A stretch of DNA of 64,000 bases from an uncultured Sulfuricurvum sp. (GTDB lineage: Bacteria > Campylobacterota > Campylobacteria > Campylobacterales > Sulfurimonadaceae): assembly GCA_903844635.1 (NCBI GenBank), contig CAIMUF010000059.1, positions 62,001 through 126,000 of the forward strand, read 5' to 3'. The notes beneath the pieces were generated by a model, which did not search any database, was not told where the DNA came from, and saw only the letters and a program-made list of their open reading frames with translations. A program made the position numbers and the translations under genes. The number at the start of each line of letters is the position of its first letter. The first letter of the stretch is position 1. Below, in pieces: positions 17,327-63,328 of this stretch.

Positions 17327-17355
17327 TTGACAGTGATAGCATTACTTTTTATTGT
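17327..17355 (+). promoter_or_regulatory. Sigma70-type promoter for the GAF gene pair
   Basis: TTGACA at 17327-17332, a 17-nt spacer, TATTGT at 17350-17355. The gene starts 26 nt further on, after AAGGAAA. One of the few promoters in the window with a good -35. Confidence 0.6.
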
Positions 17356-17380: not shown

Positions 17381-17908
17381 ATGGATTCAAACCCTACGTT
17401 TAGCAAATTAGCCGATTTCGGGCGCGCTCTATTAACTAAACCTACTTTAAATGAGGGGCTTCCGATCATTTCTGAATACGCTAAGGGCGTCAGTGGTGCC
17501 CAGCGATGCTCTATTTTTATTCGTAATTTTACGAATAAAACTCTCTGGACGACACTTGCCGATGAAACTGACACCATTACACTTCATGAAAATGACGGTA
17601 TAGCAGGGCAAACCATCAAAGAAGGCAAACCTCTTCTCATTAATGACCCCTACAACGATGACCATTTTTTATCTACTGTTGATGACAAAACAGGTTTTAT
17701 TACTAACAATATTGCTTCTATCCCTATTTTTGATTCCAATCGACGAATTATAGGAGTATTTCAGCTGCTCAATAAACCTAATGGGTTTAGTGTTGAGGAT
17801 ACCAAATCAATGATTTTCTTTGCACATTATATTAGTACGTACTTGGAACTGGCCCTCTCATTCGACAATCAAGGAACATTACTAAAAAAGGAAACACATG
17901 GGGATTGA
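17381..17908 (+). CDS. Stand-alone GAF domain protein 1
   Basis: 175 residues, essentially one GAF domain (about 10-160) with no output domain, signal or membrane segment. Conserved GAF features: QRCSIFIRN, DGIAGQTIKEGKPLLINDPYND, SIPIFDS..IIGVFQLLNK. The cyclic-nucleotide-GAF motif NK(x)nF(x)3DE is incomplete here (NK..F...DT). It overlaps its paralogue by 11 nt, so the two are made together and could heterodimerise. Ligand unknown. Confidence 0.85.
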   Translation: MDSNPTFSKLADFGRALLTKPTLNEGLPIISEYAKGVSGAQRCSIFIRNFTNKTLWTTLADETDTITLHENDGIAGQTIKEGKPLLINDPYNDDHFLSTVDDKTGFITNNIASIPIFDSNRRIIGVFQLLNKPNGFSVEDTKSMIFFAHYISTYLELALSFDNQGTLLKKETHGD

Positions 17909-18398
17909 AATTTACCAACGCATTGCACAATTTGGAAAAATGTTAGCTCAATTTGACACTATCGACACGACACTGCCTTCCATCGCCGAAGAAGCAAAAG
18001 CTATCATTAATGCAGAGAGATGTTCAATCTTTATTGTCGATCACTCTACCGACATGCTCTGGACAAAACTCAGCGATGGGATTGGACGTATTGCTATTGC
18101 TCTTGATTCAGGCATCGTCGGACTGTGTGCTTCCTCTGAGCAATCCGTTATTGTCAATAATCCTTATGAAGATAGCCGTTTTTTATCCAAGATTGATGAA
18201 AAAAGCGGCTTCGTCACCCGAAACATTCTTACCATTCCTATTTTTAATTCCAAACAAAATGTTGTTGGAGTCATTCAATTACTCAATAAATACAATGGCG
18301 ATTTTGATGAAAGTGACGAAGGAATTATGGGATTTTTTGCGAACTACGTCAGCGGAACATTGGAATTGGCACTCTTGATGGAGGAAAATAAGAAGTAA
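17898..18398 (+). CDS. Stand-alone GAF domain protein 2
   Basis: 166 residues, a single GAF domain closely similar to the preceding gene product over its whole length: ERCSIFIVD, SGIVGLCASSEQSVIVNNPYED, TIPIFNS..VVGVIQLLNK. It carries the complete NK(x)4F(x)3DE motif seen in cyclic-nucleotide-binding GAF domains (NKYNGDFDESDE). ATG at 17898 after AAGGAA, within the end of gene 1. A tandem duplication. Role inferred only as small-molecule sensing. Confidence 0.85.
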   Translation: MGIEIYQRIAQFGKMLAQFDTIDTTLPSIAEEAKAIINAERCSIFIVDHSTDMLWTKLSDGIGRIAIALDSGIVGLCASSEQSVIVNNPYEDSRFLSKIDEKSGFVTRNILTIPIFNSKQNVVGVIQLLNKYNGDFDESDEGIMGFFANYVSGTLELALLMEENKK

Positions 18399-18413: not shown

Positions 18414-18435
18414 CATTCCCGTCTTCACGGGAATG
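18414..18435. terminator. Bidirectional hairpin, half copy of a palindromic repeat
   Basis: CATTCCCGT-CTTC-ACGGGAATG between the convergent GAF gene and asnB, preceded by a T run on the + strand. The core is identical to 37165-37185, so it belongs to the same repeat family. Confidence 0.65.
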
Positions 18436-20308: not shown

Positions 20309-21175
20309 ATGATACCCGTCTCTATCTCTCAAAAACAAATTGTTCTTGATTTCTTTGCCAATGATATTAAAGTAGTCAAAAAATACTTCAATGCCATTGG
20401 TTTTGATTTCGATGAACGTTTTCGTTTTGATGTTTTTAAAGAGTTCATCTATTCCGCCGCTGGAATGTTCAAAGACATCGACCCTACCATTTACAATCAA
20501 GAGCTTATCAGTCAATTCAACACCATTCGCTATTTAAATGAGAGATACAGTGACTTCGAACAGCGCAGCCAGCACGTTCAAAAAGTGTATATCAAAGATT
20601 TTCTCTGTGCTCAAGAATCTTATATGCACGAAAAAAAAGAGTTTGATACCCTAAAAAGCGAGCTGCAAATGCTCATTGCCAAAGAACAAGTCGTTACCGC
20701 TAAACGAGATCTTATGGAAAAGCAAATCGGGAATATTTCTCCGGAAGCTCGTAATGAATTCGAACACGAACTCAAAAAAATCCGCCGTGAACAAGTGGAT
20801 ACCATCCATTTTATCGGAACACACCGACAAGAACTCGAAGAGCACCAAGTCAATCTAAAAGCATTCGAAGATCTGCACCGCGAAGAGTTTCTCAAGTATT
20901 TTAATGAAATTAAAGAAAAATTAACCCACCAATATACCGAATCCCTCAACTATTTTGGATTTGATTTTAATGAAGCGCTCTTTCGTAATTCTGAACGCTC
21001 TCACGCCATTCAAAAATTTAAAACCGAGGCAGGAATACAAGGAAATATCAATCTGTGTAAATACGTCGAATATTATTTGCGGAATGTTGTTCCTGAAGCG
21101 TTGGCGGATGCAGGGCATAAAGAACGGCTTTTGAATGCGAAGCGATATTGTGAACAGAATAAAATGCGGTCCTAA
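20309..21175 (+). CDS. Coiled-coil protein of unknown function at head of pgl operon
   Basis: 288 residues, soluble, not recognised. A central coiled coil (about 80-200) is flanked by two short similar modules: KKYFNAIGFDFDERFRF (about 25-41) and ESLNYFGFDFNEALFR (about 213-228). No signal peptide or catalytic motif. It ends 6 nt before pglK, so it is probably cotranscribed with the glycosylation genes. The start ATG at 20309 has only a weak ribosome site. Function unknown. Confidence 0.7.
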   Translation: MIPVSISQKQIVLDFFANDIKVVKKYFNAIGFDFDERFRFDVFKEFIYSAAGMFKDIDPTIYNQELISQFNTIRYLNERYSDFEQRSQHVQKVYIKDFLCAQESYMHEKKEFDTLKSELQMLIAKEQVVTAKRDLMEKQIGNISPEARNEFEHELKKIRREQVDTIHFIGTHRQELEEHQVNLKAFEDLHREEFLKYFNEIKEKLTHQYTESLNYFGFDFNEALFRNSERSHAIQKFKTEAGIQGNINLCKYVEYYLRNVVPEALADAGHKERLLNAKRYCEQNKMRS

Positions 21176-33128: not shown

Positions 33129-35235
33129 ATAATATTTCGATCGGAAACGGACGATCGATATGGTACCCCTGCGCAAAATCCACATTAAGCTCATTAAGCA
33201 CATGTAAGACTGCAGCAGTCTCAACATACTCACAAATGGTTGCGATACCCATAACGTGTCCTATTTGATTGATGGCATCTACCATTGCGCGGTTAATCGG
33301 ATTAAGATGAATATCATGGACGAAGGAGCCGTCTATTTTTAAATAATCGATCGGCATGTTCTGCAAATACGAAAACGATGAGAGCCCGCATCCAAAATCA
33401 TCCAATGCAAAACGGCATCCCAATGCTCGAAATTCGTTAATAAACTCCAAAGCATTCGTCATATTCCCTACCGCTTCGGTCTCTGTGATTTCAAACGTTA
33501 TCGTGTGATAAGGGACACCATAATTTCCGAACAATCCACGTATAAAATCTTTTGTCCTCGCATCCCCCAAAGACGCGCCTGAAACATTGATACTAAAATA
33601 TGTCTCTTCGTTCACTTCATGCCAAATCTTTGTAAAGCTTTTAAAGGTGTTCTCTATCACCCATCGATCGAGTTTGGGCATAAAACCATAGCGCTCGGCT
33701 GCGGGTATAAATGCCATAGGCGGAATAATCTCTCCACTCTCTTCACGCAGCCTGACTAAGACTTCATAATGGCGACGTTGAAGCGGATCTAAAACGGGAA
33801 CAATAGGTTGCACGTACAAAACAAATGAATTCGTAATCAGGGCTTCTTCGAGTCGTCCAATCCACTGCATTTGGTTACGTCGCTCTTGAATCGTAGTATC
33901 TTCAGGATGTGCCACATGAATACGATTTCGGCCACCGTCTTTAGCTGCATAGCACGCAGCGTCCGCTTGAGATAAGAGATTGGTCAACGTGCAACACTCC
34001 TTTATAATCCCTACCATCCCTATGCTTGCCCCTATTCGAAAGGTATTGCCTTGATAATTAAATCGATATTCACCTATCGCATTAAGTAACCGCTGCCCCT
34101 GTAGTTGAGCATCTTCAAGGGTCGAATCAATATAAATAATCCCAAACTCATCGCCGCCTAAACGCGCAACCACATCAGTCTCGCGCGCAGAACGCTTTAA
34201 AACAAGAGCAATCTGACGTAAAAGCTCATCTCCTGCAATGTGCCCGCACTTGTCATTGACAATCTTAAATTGATCTAAATCGATGTAACACATTACGTGG
34301 GTAGCTTCCTCATTTTTCGCACTCTCAATAACCGCTTTAAGGCGTTGCTCAAATTCATAGCGGTTGACCAAACCCGTAATCGAATCCAGCTTAACCATTT
34401 TTTCCAGATCGTATGTACGGCGCGAAACTTCCGCTTCAAGCGATTCATTGTAGTTTATAAGCTGTGAATTCAATTCTCGGTTCTCAAAATCAGCACGAGC
34501 AAGATGATCGGTATTGATCGTCACTTTATGTGTGAGCCAAAATAAAAGAGCACTAATGACAATAATATTAAGATCGCGCCACAAGGGATCCGATAAAAAC
34601 ATAAAAAGTGCTGCTAGAAATCCGATAGCAAATACAAACCCATTAAATTGCATTCCCGTACATTGAGGAGCCGTAAGAGTGCAATAATCACACCTCGCAT
34701 AAGGCTTAAAACCATTTCGAGCAAGAATACAATTTTTATTGGTTGTCAAATCCTGTAGATCACTTGAAGATGATGAAGATTTTTGTAAACTCCTAAAACC
34801 TATATAGCCTAACGCTGAAAGACAAAATCCAAAGAAGGTGCTAATCATCATAAACACTCCCATAAATGTCCCAATCAACCATGTAGCGAGAGGATAATAG
34901 AAGAAAAGTCCAATAGCCAGAGAAGAGACGAACAAGCGTGCAAACAGTTCAAACCATTCACTCTCTCGATTCATAAAATAGGAGCGTTTATACGCAGGAG
35001 AAATAGTACAGATGGGTCGCTTGAGGATCAGTTCAATAAGGTGTAAAAGCCAACTGGTCGGAGAAAAGTGAACCGTTGTAATGAAAGTAATTAGATTGAT
35101 AGCAAAATAAAAATAAAAATAATTGATATTTTGAAAAAATACTCCAAGAATGATAATAAAACCTAAAACCAAGCGATTAAATTTAACTTCACCTGACGTC
35201 GGTGATTGATACGAGAACCACAACATACTCTTCAT
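33109..35235 (-). CDS. DUF4395-like membrane domain fused to GGDEF and EAL
   Basis: 708 residues. N-terminal DUF4395-like module (about 15-160, four helices), a short Cys-containing loop (CDYCTLTAPQC), two more helices (about 200-240), a coiled linker, GGDEF (LGGDEFG, about 375) and EAL (about 450-700). The EAL signature reads EVL, but the downstream catalytic residues are present (INVSG, FEITETE, LDDFGCG, LKIDGSFV, CEYVET, AQGY). Likely makes and/or breaks c-di-GMP in response to a membrane signal. Stand-alone gene facing pglF. Confidence 0.88.
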   Translation of the reverse strand: MKSMLWFSYQSPTSGEVKFNRLVLGFIIILGVFFQNINYFYFYFAINLITFITTVHFSPTSWLLHLIELILKRPICTISPAYKRSYFMNRESEWFELFARLFVSSLAIGLFFYYPLATWLIGTFMGVFMMISTFFGFCLSALGYIGFRSLQKSSSSSSDLQDLTTNKNCILARNGFKPYARCDYCTLTAPQCTGMQFNGFVFAIGFLAALFMFLSDPLWRDLNIIVISALLFWLTHKVTINTDHLARADFENRELNSQLINYNESLEAEVSRRTYDLEKMVKLDSITGLVNRYEFEQRLKAVIESAKNEEATHVMCYIDLDQFKIVNDKCGHIAGDELLRQIALVLKRSARETDVVARLGGDEFGIIYIDSTLEDAQLQGQRLLNAIGEYRFNYQGNTFRIGASIGMVGIIKECCTLTNLLSQADAACYAAKDGGRNRIHVAHPEDTTIQERRNQMQWIGRLEEALITNSFVLYVQPIVPVLDPLQRRHYEVLVRLREESGEIIPPMAFIPAAERYGFMPKLDRWVIENTFKSFTKIWHEVNEETYFSINVSGASLGDARTKDFIRGLFGNYGVPYHTITFEITETEAVGNMTNALEFINEFRALGCRFALDDFGCGLSSFSYLQNMPIDYLKIDGSFVHDIHLNPINRAMVDAINQIGHVMGIATICEYVETAAVLHVLNELNVDFAQGYHIDRPFPIEILFTPQGL

Positions 35236-37125: not shown

Positions 37126-37188
37126 CGTCATTCCTGCGAAGGAGGGACAATTTAAAGAGACTGGATTCCCGTCTTCACGGGAATGACG
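37126..37188. repeat. Palindromic intergenic repeat with inverted ends
   Basis: 63-nt unit with 9-bp inverted ends (CGTCATTCC/GGAATGACG); the right half contains ATTCCCGT-CTTC-ACGGGAAT, also found at 18415-18434. Lies between ilvD and the tRNA cluster. Confidence 0.7.
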
Positions 37189-58005: not shown

Positions 58006-59292
58006 ATGTTTAAAACTGAATCTTATCTCCCTATTATTGAATCCAGTATTCATGATTTTTACAGTGATCTCGAATATGAGGGGTATCTTGGCAATAGTAA
58101 TTTCGACTATGCCCGCGCTATCAACCACCATAAAGAGTTTTTTATTGCACTGCTTGCATCCACCAATGCGGAGGATGCAACGGACAAAACCGAAGAGTTC
58201 GTACACTTTTGTGTTACGCACGAGATTCCGTATATGTTCGTGTATGGAGAGCTTCTCACTATTGCTCGAAATTTAATGGGAATTCTGGCAGAAGAAGGAG
58301 ATCTTGAAAATCTAAAAAAACTCAATATCTATTTTGACAACCTTGAACATGAGATTACCATTGCTTATTTTCATAAATTTCTCAGGCGTCTTGCTGCCAA
58401 AAACCACCTCCGCCTCTCCCATATTGCCAACCTCGTTGAAAAAAATCTAATGATTCACTATCAACAGCATATAGAGTGGCTCATCTCTCTTATTTCTTAC
58501 ATTGAGAATCACTGTAAAACTTCATATCCAGAACTCGATCATTGTCTCTGTAAATTCGGAAAATGGCTTCATAATACTTCTATCCCCTATATCGTCACCA
58601 CAAGCCACTTTAAAGAAGTAACACGATTGCACCAAAGTTTGCATGATGCAGCAAGCGACGTAGTAGGGCAGTGCCAGCAGCTCATTCAAAAGCCTAAACA
58701 TTTGATCCATCTGCTCCAACGCCTTGACTACATCTCATTGGAAATTGGAAATGAGATTGCTATTTTAAATGATATGATGCTTATTGAAGAATATTCCAAA
58801 GATCCACTGACGGGACTACTAACGCGCCGACTGTTTGATAAAGTGATGATGGGGCAAATCGAAATAGCGAAAGCTACAGAGAGTCAATGCTCTCTTATCA
58901 TGTGTGATTTGGATCACTTCAAAGTGATCAATGATACCCACGGTCACCTCGCAGGAGATGCCGTTATCCAAAACTTTGCAGCTGTACTAAAAAAAATATT
59001 ACGAAAATCGGATTTTATTTTCCGTTATGGAGGGGAAGAGTTCATCGTTCTTCTCCCTGCCACTTCCAAAGATCAAGCGCGGACCATTGCCCAAAAAATT
59101 TGCAATGAAGTTGCAACCCAAATCGTTCCTTTTGATACCGTTGCATTGAATTACACCGTCAGTATCGGAGTCTCTCCCGTTATAACCGGTGACACCTCAT
59201 ACATTTTAAAAGAGACAATTCAAAGTTACGTTTCAGAAGTCGACAGCAAGCTCTATCTTGCCAAACAAAATGGGCGCAATCGAGTGGAATAA
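58006..59292 (+). CDS. Diguanylate cyclase with CZB zinc-sensing domain
   Basis: 428 residues, no membrane helix. N-terminal helical bundle (about 1-140), CZB domain (about 145-235) with its zinc set: H in QHIEWLI, C in CLCKFGKWLH and H..H in RLHQSLHDA; GGDEF domain (about 265-428) with active GGEEF in YGGEEFIVLL and the DLDHFKVINDTHGH block. This resembles E. coli DgcZ, where zinc binding inhibits the cyclase. Hairpin terminator follows. Confidence 0.9.
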   Translation: MFKTESYLPIIESSIHDFYSDLEYEGYLGNSNFDYARAINHHKEFFIALLASTNAEDATDKTEEFVHFCVTHEIPYMFVYGELLTIARNLMGILAEEGDLENLKKLNIYFDNLEHEITIAYFHKFLRRLAAKNHLRLSHIANLVEKNLMIHYQQHIEWLISLISYIENHCKTSYPELDHCLCKFGKWLHNTSIPYIVTTSHFKEVTRLHQSLHDAASDVVGQCQQLIQKPKHLIHLLQRLDYISLEIGNEIAILNDMMLIEEYSKDPLTGLLTRRLFDKVMMGQIEIAKATESQCSLIMCDLDHFKVINDTHGHLAGDAVIQNFAAVLKKILRKSDFIFRYGGEEFIVLLPATSKDQARTIAQKICNEVATQIVPFDTVALNYTVSIGVSPVITGDTSYILKETIQSYVSEVDSKLYLAKQNGRNRVE

Positions 59293-59477: not shown

Positions 59478-60776
59478 ATGACACGCTTGTCTATCACAGT
59501 ACTTCTTATCATTATGGTACTATGGATCATCCATAGTTTCATCCTTAACCGCCGGCTTATTCAAAGCCAAAGCCGCTACCAACAATTTTTTAGTGATTCA
59601 CTCGACGCTCTTATTGTTATTGATAAATATTACCATATCATCGAATGGAATCAAAGCGCTAAAACTATTTTTGGCTGGAGCGCCAAAGAAGCTTTAGGGA
59701 AAGACATTATGGATTTTATTGTCCCCTCTTTCGAAACTGCACAGGTATTAAAAGTATTACAAAAAGCTACCACAAAAGGGGTGAGTCAATCAAAAAATTA
59801 CAATACCACAAAAAATAGGAACGAAATTTTTTGCGAATGGCGCAATCGATTATTGGAAGAAACGGATGGACATATTCTCTGCATCGCACAAAACATTACC
59901 TCCTCGAAAAAGGTCCTTGATGACCTAAGTAAACGCTCCAGCGCTTTAGATAATGCTGGGGATTCCATCCTTTATACAGACCATAAAGGATTTATCGAGT
60001 ATGCCAACCAAAGTTTTTTCTTTCTCAATCTAAGTGATCCTGATGATGTTTATGGCTCCCATATCGGCAGCTACCTTTTTAAAGAGAGATTAACATTTAG
60101 TGCCTTGCAGTCCCAATTTAATACCAACCGCACATGGAAGGGGCAAATCACAAAACTCTCTAAAAATGGCAATAAAATCCTCAGCGTCACCATCACTGCA
60201 ATTTATAATGACCAGAGGCTCCTTGGCTATGTGGCTAACCTCCACGACATTACAGAGCTAAGTGTTCATGTCGATGCAATGACGCACCAAGCACATCATG
60301 ATCCCCTCACGGGAGCAACCAACCGAAACGCCATGAATGACCGCTTACGCCACGCCATTGATCGAGCAAAAAGAGCAGAACAAAAGATTGCCCTCTTTTT
60401 TATTGATCTTAATGATTTTAAAATGGTCAATGACACTTACGGACATGAAACAGGAGATAGACTTTTATTGGAAGTAGCAAGAAATTTACGCCAATACCTA
60501 CGAACCAGCGATACTATTTGCAGATATGGAGGAGATGAGTTTGTCATTATTATCGAAGAAATACAAGGTCAAGAGCACATCAAGATGGTCTTTCAAACAA
60601 TACAAAAAGCCATCAACAAACCCATAATTATCAATACACAAATAACCCTCCAAGCAAAAGCGAGTATCGGAATGGCACTTTATCCTGACGATGCTACGGA
60701 TGCACAAATACTAATAAAAGCAGCAGACATGTCAATGTACCGCATTAAACGAAAAAAAGCCGAATCCTCACACTAA
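59478..60776 (+). CDS. PAS-PAS diguanylate cyclase, membrane anchored
   Basis: 432 residues from the ATG at 59478: one membrane helix (about 3-22), PAS 1 (about 30-145), PAS 2 (about 150-265), GGDEF (about 275-432) with FIDLNDFKMVNDTYGH and active-site YGGDEFVIII. No EAL. The start is uncertain: a GTG 12 codons upstream is in frame but has no ribosome site; the ATG overlaps the stop of a 26-codon leader frame (TAATG), suggesting coupling. Makes c-di-GMP under an unknown, possibly redox or ligand, cue. Confidence 0.87.
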   Translation: MTRLSITVLLIIMVLWIIHSFILNRRLIQSQSRYQQFFSDSLDALIVIDKYYHIIEWNQSAKTIFGWSAKEALGKDIMDFIVPSFETAQVLKVLQKATTKGVSQSKNYNTTKNRNEIFCEWRNRLLEETDGHILCIAQNITSSKKVLDDLSKRSSALDNAGDSILYTDHKGFIEYANQSFFFLNLSDPDDVYGSHIGSYLFKERLTFSALQSQFNTNRTWKGQITKLSKNGNKILSVTITAIYNDQRLLGYVANLHDITELSVHVDAMTHQAHHDPLTGATNRNAMNDRLRHAIDRAKRAEQKIALFFIDLNDFKMVNDTYGHETGDRLLLEVARNLRQYLRTSDTICRYGGDEFVIIIEEIQGQEHIKMVFQTIQKAINKPIIINTQITLQAKASIGMALYPDDATDAQILIKAADMSMYRIKRKKAESSH

Positions 60777-61993: not shown

Positions 61994-63328
61994 TTAGCAG
62001 CTCGTGCACGTAATCGTTTGGTTACGCCCTTGATGTTTGGCTGCGTAAAGTGCTTGGTCTGCTCGTTCAATCGCCACACGAAGAACATCATCTGGGTTTA
62101 CCCTTGTTACCCCGATACTGCATGTGATGCGCCCTGCTTGATTAAAAGTATGGGCTTCAACTGCGAGACGAATTTTTTCAGCCGCGACGTATGCTTGTTC
62201 ACAATTCGTATGGTGTAACAGCAATACAAACTCTTCCCCTCCCCATCGAGCGAATACATCTGCCTCTCGAATTAACTTTGTGACAATTGAACTAAACGTC
62301 TTAAGGACATAATCGCCAATATTATGACCATAGGTATCATTGACCTTTTTAAAATCATCCAGATCCAGCATCAAAAGCGATACATCTATCCCGTATCGTT
62401 TGGATGTTGCCAATTCTTTCTCGTAAAGCTCTGCGAACATATGCCGATTATTAATGGAAGTCAGAGAATCTTTGGTTGCCAAAGTGGTTAAATGTTTATT
62501 CTTTTGTTGAAGGATTTGGTTCAGTTCCTCAAATTTATCGTAATGCGTATTCACCAACTGCGACCACTTTAAATACGTTCGTGAGATAAGATCTTGCTGT
62601 GTCACAATGCCGATTATAATCCCATTTTCATCCACCACAACAATCCGTTTGTAGTGATGACTTTTAAAAAAATCAAGGGCATCACTGATCGTGGCTGTTG
62701 AGGACATTGTTTCCAATGGTGAAGACATCACCTCTCCAGCAGTAATACTGGAACAATGATCATCATCGATAAATTTCAAAATATCTTTGGAGGTAACAAT
62801 TCCAACAGGAAGACTTTTATCTTGGATAATGACACAATCTGAAAGAGCATCTTTCATGTATTCCAGAACATTATCCATGTTTTCCGTACAATCAAAGCTT
62901 TTAAATCCAAATTTCTTATCGAAAATAGTTCCAAGCTGCAAACTTTCCAAAACGACCTGAGGATCCACACTTGCCACAATATCACTGTTGGTAACCAATC
63001 CATATAATGAGCCATCCTCATTGCAAACACAAATATACTCACCTGTTTTGTCGGTCATATTAAGAGCATTAATAACATTACTCTCTTTGCTTAAACGTGG
63101 AAGTGTCTGCAATGAAATTTTTGATAGCGGTGTCGAAAAATCAATTTTTTCTACTTTTAAACGAATCAAATCTTTCGAAGTAATGATGTGGTGAAGGGGT
63201 CCATTCACAACGACAATACTGCGATGCTCATATTCATGCATCTTTCTTAATGCATCGTTAATGGTATCGTTAATATCAGCACAGATAACATCCGTGGAAG
63301 CAATCAATTCAAGGGTGGGGAAAAACAT
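61994..63328 (-). CDS. Four-CBS-domain diguanylate cyclase
   Basis: 444 residues, cytosolic. Two CBS pairs (about 10-135 and 145-265; e.g. HHIITSKDLIRLK, GLVTNSDIV, GIVTSKDILKF, GIVTQQDLISR), a short coiled linker, then GGDEF (about 285-440) with LDLDDFKKVNDTYGHNIGD and the active RWGGEEFVLLL. CBS pairs commonly bind adenine nucleotides, so the cyclase is probably tuned by energy state. No EAL domain. It converges on the M15 gene. Confidence 0.92.
   Translation of the reverse strand: MFFPTLELIASTDVICADINDTINDALRKMHEYEHRSIVVVNGPLHHIITSKDLIRLKVEKIDFSTPLSKISLQTLPRLSKESNVINALNMTDKTGEYICVCNEDGSLYGLVTNSDIVASVDPQVVLESLQLGTIFDKKFGFKSFDCTENMDNVLEYMKDALSDCVIIQDKSLPVGIVTSKDILKFIDDDHCSSITAGEVMSSPLETMSSTATISDALDFFKSHHYKRIVVVDENGIIIGIVTQQDLISRTYLKWSQLVNTHYDKFEELNQILQQKNKHLTTLATKDSLTSINNRHMFAELYEKELATSKRYGIDVSLLMLDLDDFKKVNDTYGHNIGDYVLKTFSSIVTKLIREADVFARWGGEEFVLLLHHTNCEQAYVAAEKIRLAVEAHTFNQAGRITCSIGVTRVNPDDVLRVAIERADQALYAAKHQGRNQTITCTSC

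Follow-up and report, generated by a model that had tools for sequence, protein, structure and literature searches.

Two overlapping genes in a stretch of 64,000 nucleotides from an uncultured Sulfuricurvum sp. (hereafter the window, to which all positions refer unless a locus is named) encode small paralogous proteins, each consisting of a GAF domain alone and hereafter referred to as GAF-A and GAF-B. The pair is real, conserved and mildly unusual. The explanation considered best here, which we hold with about even confidence, is that GAF-A and GAF-B act together as a cytosolic sensor of two subunits, which binds a nucleotide-like ligand and regulates a separate partner. The evidence comes from the conservation of the pair and of its ligand pocket, predicted structures, the distribution of cyclases and the comparison with known GAF systems.

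The gene pair

The pair and its immediate surroundings comprise the following features:

17381-17908, forward strand: GAF-A, stand-alone GAF protein of 175 aa (open reading frame; Pfam GAF, E 1.1e-11)
17898-18398, forward strand: GAF-B, stand-alone GAF protein of 166 aa (open reading frame; Pfam GAF, E 8.5e-16)
17898-17908, forward strand: 11 bp shared by the 3' end of GAF-A and the 5' end of GAF-B (sequence)
17327-17355, forward strand: promoter-like TTGACA-17-TATTGT, 5' of GAF-A, 10 of 12 matches, weak

An earlier note on this DNA had described two overlapping paralogues made of a GAF domain only, and this description holds: both open reading frames were recovered at its coordinates with the 11 bp overlap, GAF (PF01590) is the sole Pfam family type in either protein, with scores of 45.9 bits for GAF-A and 59.1 bits for GAF-B against a curated cut-off of 22.4, and the two proteins are 44% identical over 154 columns. 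No HD-GYP domain was found by Pfam on either chain, which sets both apart from proteins of the PmGH type. An AGG stretch, noticed by eye, lies six bases 5' of the GAF-B ATG. The two genes overlap by 11 or 4 bp (13 and 12 loci, respectively) in all 25 Sulfuricurvum-type two-copy loci measured, including the window, and this overlap suggests translational coupling. The promoter-like pattern is weak, as five such sites were found where 5.3 are expected from shuffled sequences. Sulfuricurvum-type is used here as our own grouping for loci L033-L058, L081 and the window, in which GAF-B is at least 69% identical to that of the window; some of these records carry wider names, such as Campylobacterales.

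The genome of the window (2.67 Mb, 96% complete) is Sulfuricurvum-type, and the closest named record found for GAF-B is its counterpart in a Sulfuricurvum metagenome-assembled genome, at 97% identity. Eight PF01590 matches, one of them below the curated cut-off, are present in the genome; GAF-A and GAF-B alone are in short open frames, of 170 and 178 codons, against 485 to 1155 codons for the rest. Among the papers listed on GAF with Sulfurimonas, Campylobacterota, Sulfuricurvum or Epsilonproteobacteria, on stand-alone GAFs and on adenylate cyclase with Sulfurimonas, no description of the pair was found.

Distribution and phylogeny

Co-occurrence of the two paralogues across relatives, which the earlier note had put forward as a check, was borne out. 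The pair is present in 35 of the 41 genomes of the genus (26 of the 29 high-quality ones), with exactly two matches in each at E <= 1e-20. Of the 101 family genomes sampled, 68 had some match, as had 58 of 397 genomes across the phylum at E <= 1e-25; both counts take in GAFs that are fused to other domains. Since two copies recur in the genus and the family, the pair is not a product of chance, and spurious open reading frames are ruled out.

Gene order is also conserved, GAF-A preceding GAF-B in 55 of the 57 two-copy loci. At the remaining two, L074 and L085, BLAST assigned both copies to B; the tree places the first copy of each in the A clade. Of the 57 loci, 49 have a gap of -20 to +12 bp between the genes, and in the other eight it is wider, up to 2.4 kb. 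Open frames of 354 aa in the relatives G037 and G094 were considered as possible output fusions and rejected: with A and B in different frames in these genomes, they were taken for a B frame that stays open through the A gene, as judged by coordinate arithmetic and not by translation.

A phylogenetic tree was rooted on the GAFs of GAF-HD-GYP proteins, with the long-branch rows L129, L095 and L130 omitted from its final version. One branch (97/81) separates 29 B rows from the rest, and another (97/89) separates 44 A rows and single copies; GAF-A and GAF-B are thus two ancient paralogous clades. Three rows typed as B by BLAST (L074_6, L085_8 and L102_1) grouped with the A proteins in the first tree; they were counted as A in the final tree and omitted from the count of paralogue-specific positions, and they remain B in the motif and pocket counts given below. 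The outlying single copies L123 and L128 were included in the final tree and lie outside the motif and pocket counts; the former has lost the motif Lys and the latter both the motif Lys and the pocket Arg, and by their residues both are degenerate.

All 11 single-copy relatives in the tree lie on the A side, which indicates that A is able to do without B. Several genomes have an A-type GAF without B, and B was seen alone in one genome, G006, together with locus L069, whose B is identical. A heterodimer is therefore not obligate everywhere.

The NKFDE motif

The motif regions of the two proteins are as follows:

17771-17803, forward strand: GAF-A residues 131-141, NKPNGFSVEDT, that is NK(x)3F(x)3DT (sequence)
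18285-18320, forward strand: GAF-B residues 130-141, NKYNGDFDESDE, that is NK(x)4F(x)3DE (sequence)

GAF-B carries the perfect NK(x)4F(x)3DE that had been ascribed to it, and this is the only strict match in a six-frame search of the window. The DT reported in place of DE in GAF-A is likewise present, and GAF-A departs from GAF-B not only at the last residue but also in the spacing of the motif. Among the A-type rows, Asn is found in 60 of 61, Lys, Phe and Asp in 61 of 61 each, and the final Glu in none of the 61. Among the 64 B-type rows, of which one has a gap, Asn, Lys and Asp are each found in 63 of 63, Phe in 61 of 63 and the final Glu in 26 of 63. All 26 belong to the 28 Sulfuricurvum-type rows; the Glu is found in none of the 35 B rows elsewhere, 25 of which have Leu. 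The final Glu is missing from 98 of the 124 rows with letters in both paralogues taken together. Loss of the motif in orthologues had been named in advance as evidence against a nucleotide sensor, and the outcome is divided: the full five-residue motif is not conserved among orthologues, while Asn, Lys, Phe and Asp are kept in both paralogues. As the Glu is confined to Sulfuricurvum-type B proteins, DE versus DT is a trait of one B lineage and not the defining difference between A and B, and the asymmetry proposed on this residue does not extend to the family.

These counts weigh on the asymmetrical sensor implied by the earlier note, in which GAF-B binds the nucleotide and GAF-A is a motif-degenerate, non-binding partner. 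The DE of GAF-B and the DT of GAF-A in the window are what this explanation was built on. The absence of the Glu from every B row outside the Sulfuricurvum type and the equal retention of Asn, Lys, Phe, Asp and the pocket in A stand against it, as does the grouping of the 11 single-copy rows with A when G006 is the sole B-only genome seen; because the single-copy relatives group with A, the supposedly degenerate A is the usual stand-alone copy. We regard such a division of roles as very unlikely.

According to one study, the NKFDE residues make no contact with the ligand and are deemed necessary for stabilising the fold (PMC11977230). For Dcsbis, which has a degenerate NKFDE, no binding of cAMP or cGMP is reported to have been seen (PMC4937426). 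As the pair shows, the final residue of NKFDE is by itself no sufficient basis for calling a GAF subunit live or dead.

The ligand pocket

The positions aligned with the ligand pocket of solved GAF domains span the following stretches:

17504-17704, forward strand: GAF-A pocket span, R42, S44, D101, T104 and T108 (alignment to CyaB2, 1ykd; conservation)
18018-18218, forward strand: GAF-B pocket span, R41, S43, L58, D100, S103 and T107 (alignment to CyaB2 and PDE2A; conservation)

The CyaB2 contacts were taken from PMC4411481. In the alignment, R291, T293, I308, D356 and N359 of CyaB2 correspond to R41, S43, L58, D100 and S103 of GAF-B, respectively, and this register is confirmed by the constant difference of 57 between the chain index and the numbering of the paper. 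The position of I308 is mostly Leu in the family, that of T293 is Ser and that of N359 is Ser or Thr, so that the chemistry is similar and not identical. Given in GAF-B numbering, the pocket Arg (R41) is found in every row that has a letter there (60 of A and 63 of B), the Ser (S43) in 60 of 60 and 62 of 64, the Asp (D100) in 61 of 61 and 64 of 64, and the Thr (T107) likewise in 61 of 61 and 64 of 64. The Thr is aligned with a Thr of PDE2A which we take to be T492. The Arg, Ser and Asp positions that align with CyaB2 contacts are thus nearly invariant in both paralogues and, being kept alike in A and B, indicate that the two pockets are equally intact as far as their residues tell.

A consistent asymmetry between A and B does exist in the aligned residues, at seven positions other than the last one of the motif: B positions 9, 32, 57, 59, 103, 135 and 149 are paralogue-specific in the comparison of 61 A and 61 B rows, and positions 57, 59 and 103 lie in or beside the pocket. 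As the pocket residues are also found in the cAMP-binding CyaB2, the sequence alone offers no argument for another ligand. An RxxD pattern is present in 4 of the 61 A rows and in 20 of the 64 B rows, with 13 of the B cases at one N-terminal place. A c-di-GMP site identified by RxxD was therefore rejected, there being no such site common to the family; other binding modes are allowed by this result.

The invariance of the pocket also bears on the possibility that the pair has no regulatory ligand and serves as a dimerising scaffold or adaptor, with the pocket kept for folding. Many GAF domains have no known ligand, and the NKFDE residues, lying off the ligand and deemed fold-stabilising in the study cited above (PMC11977230), are compatible with such a role. 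The invariance nevertheless reaches R41, S43 and D100, which align with direct contacts, and so would go beyond the expected demands of folding. A scaffold of this kind is considered unlikely.

Predicted structure and related GAF systems

The AlphaFold2 models have a pLDDT of 83.3 and a pTM of 0.79 for GAF-A, which has weak ends, and of 90.8 and 0.87 for GAF-B, and both match solved GAF domains. The best structural match of either protein is the GAF of PmGH (4mcw), with Z 23.7, rmsd 2.2 and 165 aligned residues for GAF-A and Z 22.6, rmsd 2.9 and 166 aligned residues for GAF-B, the latter tied (Z within 1) with the PDE5 and PDE2 GAFs. The CyaB2 GAFs are also among the structural matches of the models.

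PmGH of Persephonella marina, a c-di-GMP phosphodiesterase with GAF-HD-GYP architecture, is the best profile match as well (E 7e-43 for B and 4e-43 for A), and its GAF shows the same R, S, D and T pocket letters and the NK-F-D residues in the alignments; however, it carries the HD-GYP output on its own chain, whereas GAF-A and GAF-B stop at or shortly past the C-terminal GAF helix. PmGH has been reported to dimerise via its GAF domain and the long alpha-5 helix (PMC4159591). CyaB2, an Anabaena adenylyl cyclase (1ykd), resembles the pair in having two GAFs and in the aligned R291, D356, T293 (Ser here) and I308 (mostly Leu here), but both of its GAFs precede PAS and cyclase domains on one chain while GAF-A and GAF-B are separate proteins. 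The PDE2A and PDE5 GAFs share the fold and the pocket positions and differ in belonging to eukaryotic phosphodiesterases, fused to catalytic domains; the second GAF domain of PDE2A (its GAF-B) has Ile at the place of the Arg that is invariant in both proteins of the pair. The GAF of Lcd1 from Leptospira interrogans, solved as a cAMP complex (5w10), has the fold of our GAF-B and 25-27% identity to it; unlike the pair it is linked to a GGDEF domain, and activation of Lcd1 by cAMP has been reported (PMC8846402).

A further protein without an output domain is CvnF8 of a Streptomyces conservon, a stand-alone protein consisting mostly of one GAF, which interacts with a separate kinase and stimulates it according to PMC13343842; in the same source it is without a conserved NKFDE, and its gene shares an operon with cvnA8-D8. 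In contrast, GAF-A and GAF-B keep NK-F-D and are duplicated, and no cvnA-D genes (kinase, roadblock, CvnC and GTPase) are among the named neighbours of the pair in the window, so that the pair does not belong with the CvnF proteins.

Free methionine-R-sulfoxide reductases (fRMsr) are stand-alone GAF proteins whose activity needs a set of catalytic cysteines. Such an enzyme, 3mmh, is among the structural matches (Z 18.8, rmsd 2.8, 156 aligned, 17% identity), which raises the alternative that the pair consists of enzymes of this type. GAF-A has one Cys and GAF-B two, of which only C43/C42 is conserved, so that the set of cysteines is lacking; fRMsr is also absent from the listed sequence matches at E <= 0.01 or 0.001, which are led by the CyaB2, PmGH and PDE GAFs. 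An fRMsr-like enzyme was ruled out on the cysteines and the sequence matches, and we hold it to be extremely improbable.

Related GAFs are fused to HD-GYP-type HD domains or to HATPase, and signalling outputs are therefore usual for the branch to which GAF-A and GAF-B belong. At locus L130 (4786-6015), a GAF-HATPase_c kinase-like protein of 409 aa was observed, the GAF of which is 43% identical to a member of the GAF-A/GAF-B family.

Cyclases and the supply of cyclic nucleotides

The genome of the window has no match to class III (PF00211), class I (PF01295) or CYTH (PF01928) cyclases, and has five CRP-type cNMP_binding matches and 61 GGDEF matches. Four of the 61 GGDEF matches lie in the window (33922-34392 and 62018-62476 on the reverse strand, 58801-59283 and 60291-60761 on the forward strand), three of them within 4 kb. 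In the genus as a whole, class I cyclases were found in 0, CYTH in 1 and class III in 9 of the 41 genomes; 8 of the 35 pair-bearing genomes have a class III cyclase, and 27 are without a match. Outside the genus, a class III cyclase was found in 28 of 37 genomes with a stand-alone GAF versus 11 of 39 without one (Fisher p 4e-5, uncorrected for relatedness, the genomes having been sorted by hand).

A cyclase gene adjoins the GAF gene at two of the 12 single-copy loci examined. In genome G333, a co-directional run is made up of FecR, a CHASE2 class III cyclase, PDEase_II and, last, a stand-alone A-type GAF, the open reading frames of the last two overlapping as called. In G401, the A-type GAF gene is divergent from a run ending in FecR and a CHASE2 protein (CHASE2 assigned by Pfam on part of the open reading frame, and the cyclase half by similarity to the G333 cyclase), after which PDEase_II and GAF-HD-GYP genes lie on the other strand. 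When compared with the 88 loci of at least 5 kb, the two cyclases matched only L096, L098, L122, L124/L137 and L136, and no A-B pair locus among the 88 carries such a cyclase. The same type of cluster occurs with a GAF-HD-GYP protein in other genomes of the family (L136 by Pfam; L098 and L105 by resemblance).

Genes for a CHASE2-class III cyclase, a GAF-HD-GYP protein and a class II cAMP phosphodiesterase adjoin at L098 (2012-7216), L105 (3-3360), L136 (2558-6499) and L137 (1286-5285), the L136 cluster and part of that at L137 being assigned by Pfam. The GAF-HD-GYP-like open reading frame of L098 runs on, by eye, into a metallo-beta-lactamase-like stretch, and is possibly a cAMP/c-di-GMP crosstalk protein. 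According to PMC9239204, 21% of Campylobacterota species have an adenylate cyclase, which is invariably found with CHASE2, in most cases lies in a cluster with genes for a cAMP phosphodiesterase, FecR and TPR proteins, and shows signs of having been transferred horizontally; the term GAF is absent from the main text of that paper.

The scarcity of the three searched cyclase families makes cAMP or cGMP unlikely as the general ligand of the pair in Sulfuricurvum. In some relatives, cAMP may well be the ligand, given the co-occurrence outside the genus, the G333 and G401 loci and the GAF-HD-GYP clusters of the family. It is a puzzle that the pockets are unchanged where the searched cyclases are missing. 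One answer would be that GAF-A and GAF-B do bind a cyclic nucleotide as their signal, cAMP being the most likely one, that the pair is ancestral to the cAMP system of these bacteria, and that in Sulfuricurvum it reads cAMP from a cyclase outside the three families or persists after cyclase loss. This is consistent with the NK-F-D residues and the CyaB2-like pocket, intact in both proteins, with CyaB2 being among the best sequence and structural matches and cAMP-bound Lcd1 among the structural ones, and with the A-type GAFs within the cyclase-PDEase_II run of G333 and divergent from the cyclase-type run of G401, in addition to the co-occurrence outside the genus. The 27 pair-bearing genomes of the genus without a class III cyclase, the near absence of the other two classes, the small share of single-copy loci beside a cyclase (2/12), the lack of any such A-B pair locus and the loss of the final Glu from most rows argue against it. 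It is a real possibility about which we are doubtful.

Neighbouring genes

In the window, the neighbours of the pair are genes for dCTP deaminase and asparagine synthase, and presumably biotin carboxylase-like and biotin carrier-like genes, named from their sequences. No constant partner gene was found beside the pair, the neighbours shifting between lineages; apart from genes syntenic within the genus they vary, and a function based on neighbours was rejected accordingly.

Several features of these neighbourhoods were observed in passing. A DUF1538 gene is present in 5 of 68 neighbourhoods, with a P-II gene in four of the five and a CBS-domain gene in two (Pfam, one example each). At L085-L088 the two GAF genes are separated by the DUF1538 membrane protein gene, which is accompanied mostly by P-II-like and sometimes by CBS-domain genes, and at L069 it lies just before GAF-B, no A having been found there; the literature matches listed for DUF1538 or P-II concern other subjects only. 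Beyond the biotin carboxylase-like gene, a dCache_3-HAMP-MCP-CZB chemoreceptor gene (Pfam, one example) is found in 13 loci, including L036-L038, L040, L041 and L045, and the window has no chemoreceptor gene at that place. A protein of 288 aa encoded at 20309-21175 of the window has no Pfam match at E <= 1 and a weak NCBIfam match of DUF559 type (E 0.0044, below the cut-off); its cluster recurs at 15 loci, close to the gene for asparagine synthase. Just 3' of the pair, at 18414-18435, is a perfect palindrome, CATTCCCGT-CTTC-ACGGGAATG, with a one-mismatch copy at 37164-37185; with 4 matches (two places, both strands) against 0.01 expected, it looks like a dispersed intergenic repeat.

Proposed role and significance

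In the two-subunit sensor that we favour, GAF-A and GAF-B would be produced together and serve in the cytosol as a small sensor that has no output domain, with each subunit having the predicted GAF fold and pocket of the CyaB2/PDE/PmGH branch. They may pair as a heterodimer, which is proposed because PmGH dimerises via its GAF domain and long helix. The ligand would be nucleotide-like and, in Sulfuricurvum, probably neither cAMP nor cGMP, and the signal would be passed in trans to a separate partner, as with CvnF8. Since the genome has many c-di-GMP enzymes and related GAFs are fused to HD-GYP-type domains or HATPase, we would infer c-di-GMP enzymes, HD-GYP-type proteins or kinase (HATPase) proteins as the first partner candidates.

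A more specific version, which we consider rather unlikely as a whole, is that of an orphan receptor: a cAMP-type GAF pair would have outlived the loss of the cAMP system in most Sulfuricurvum, its pockets now responding to some other nucleotide-like signal and the paralogue-specific residues 57, 59 and 103 giving A and B different affinities or ligands. Having no output of its own, the pair would regulate c-di-GMP enzymes or kinases as a subunit that can dissociate from them.

Most work on GAF sensors concerns domains fused to their output, and GAF-A and GAF-B represent a conserved two-gene version. The pair offers a clean route to the ligands of such pockets in organisms where cAMP and cGMP may be unavailable, and also a view of how a detached sensor reaches its target.
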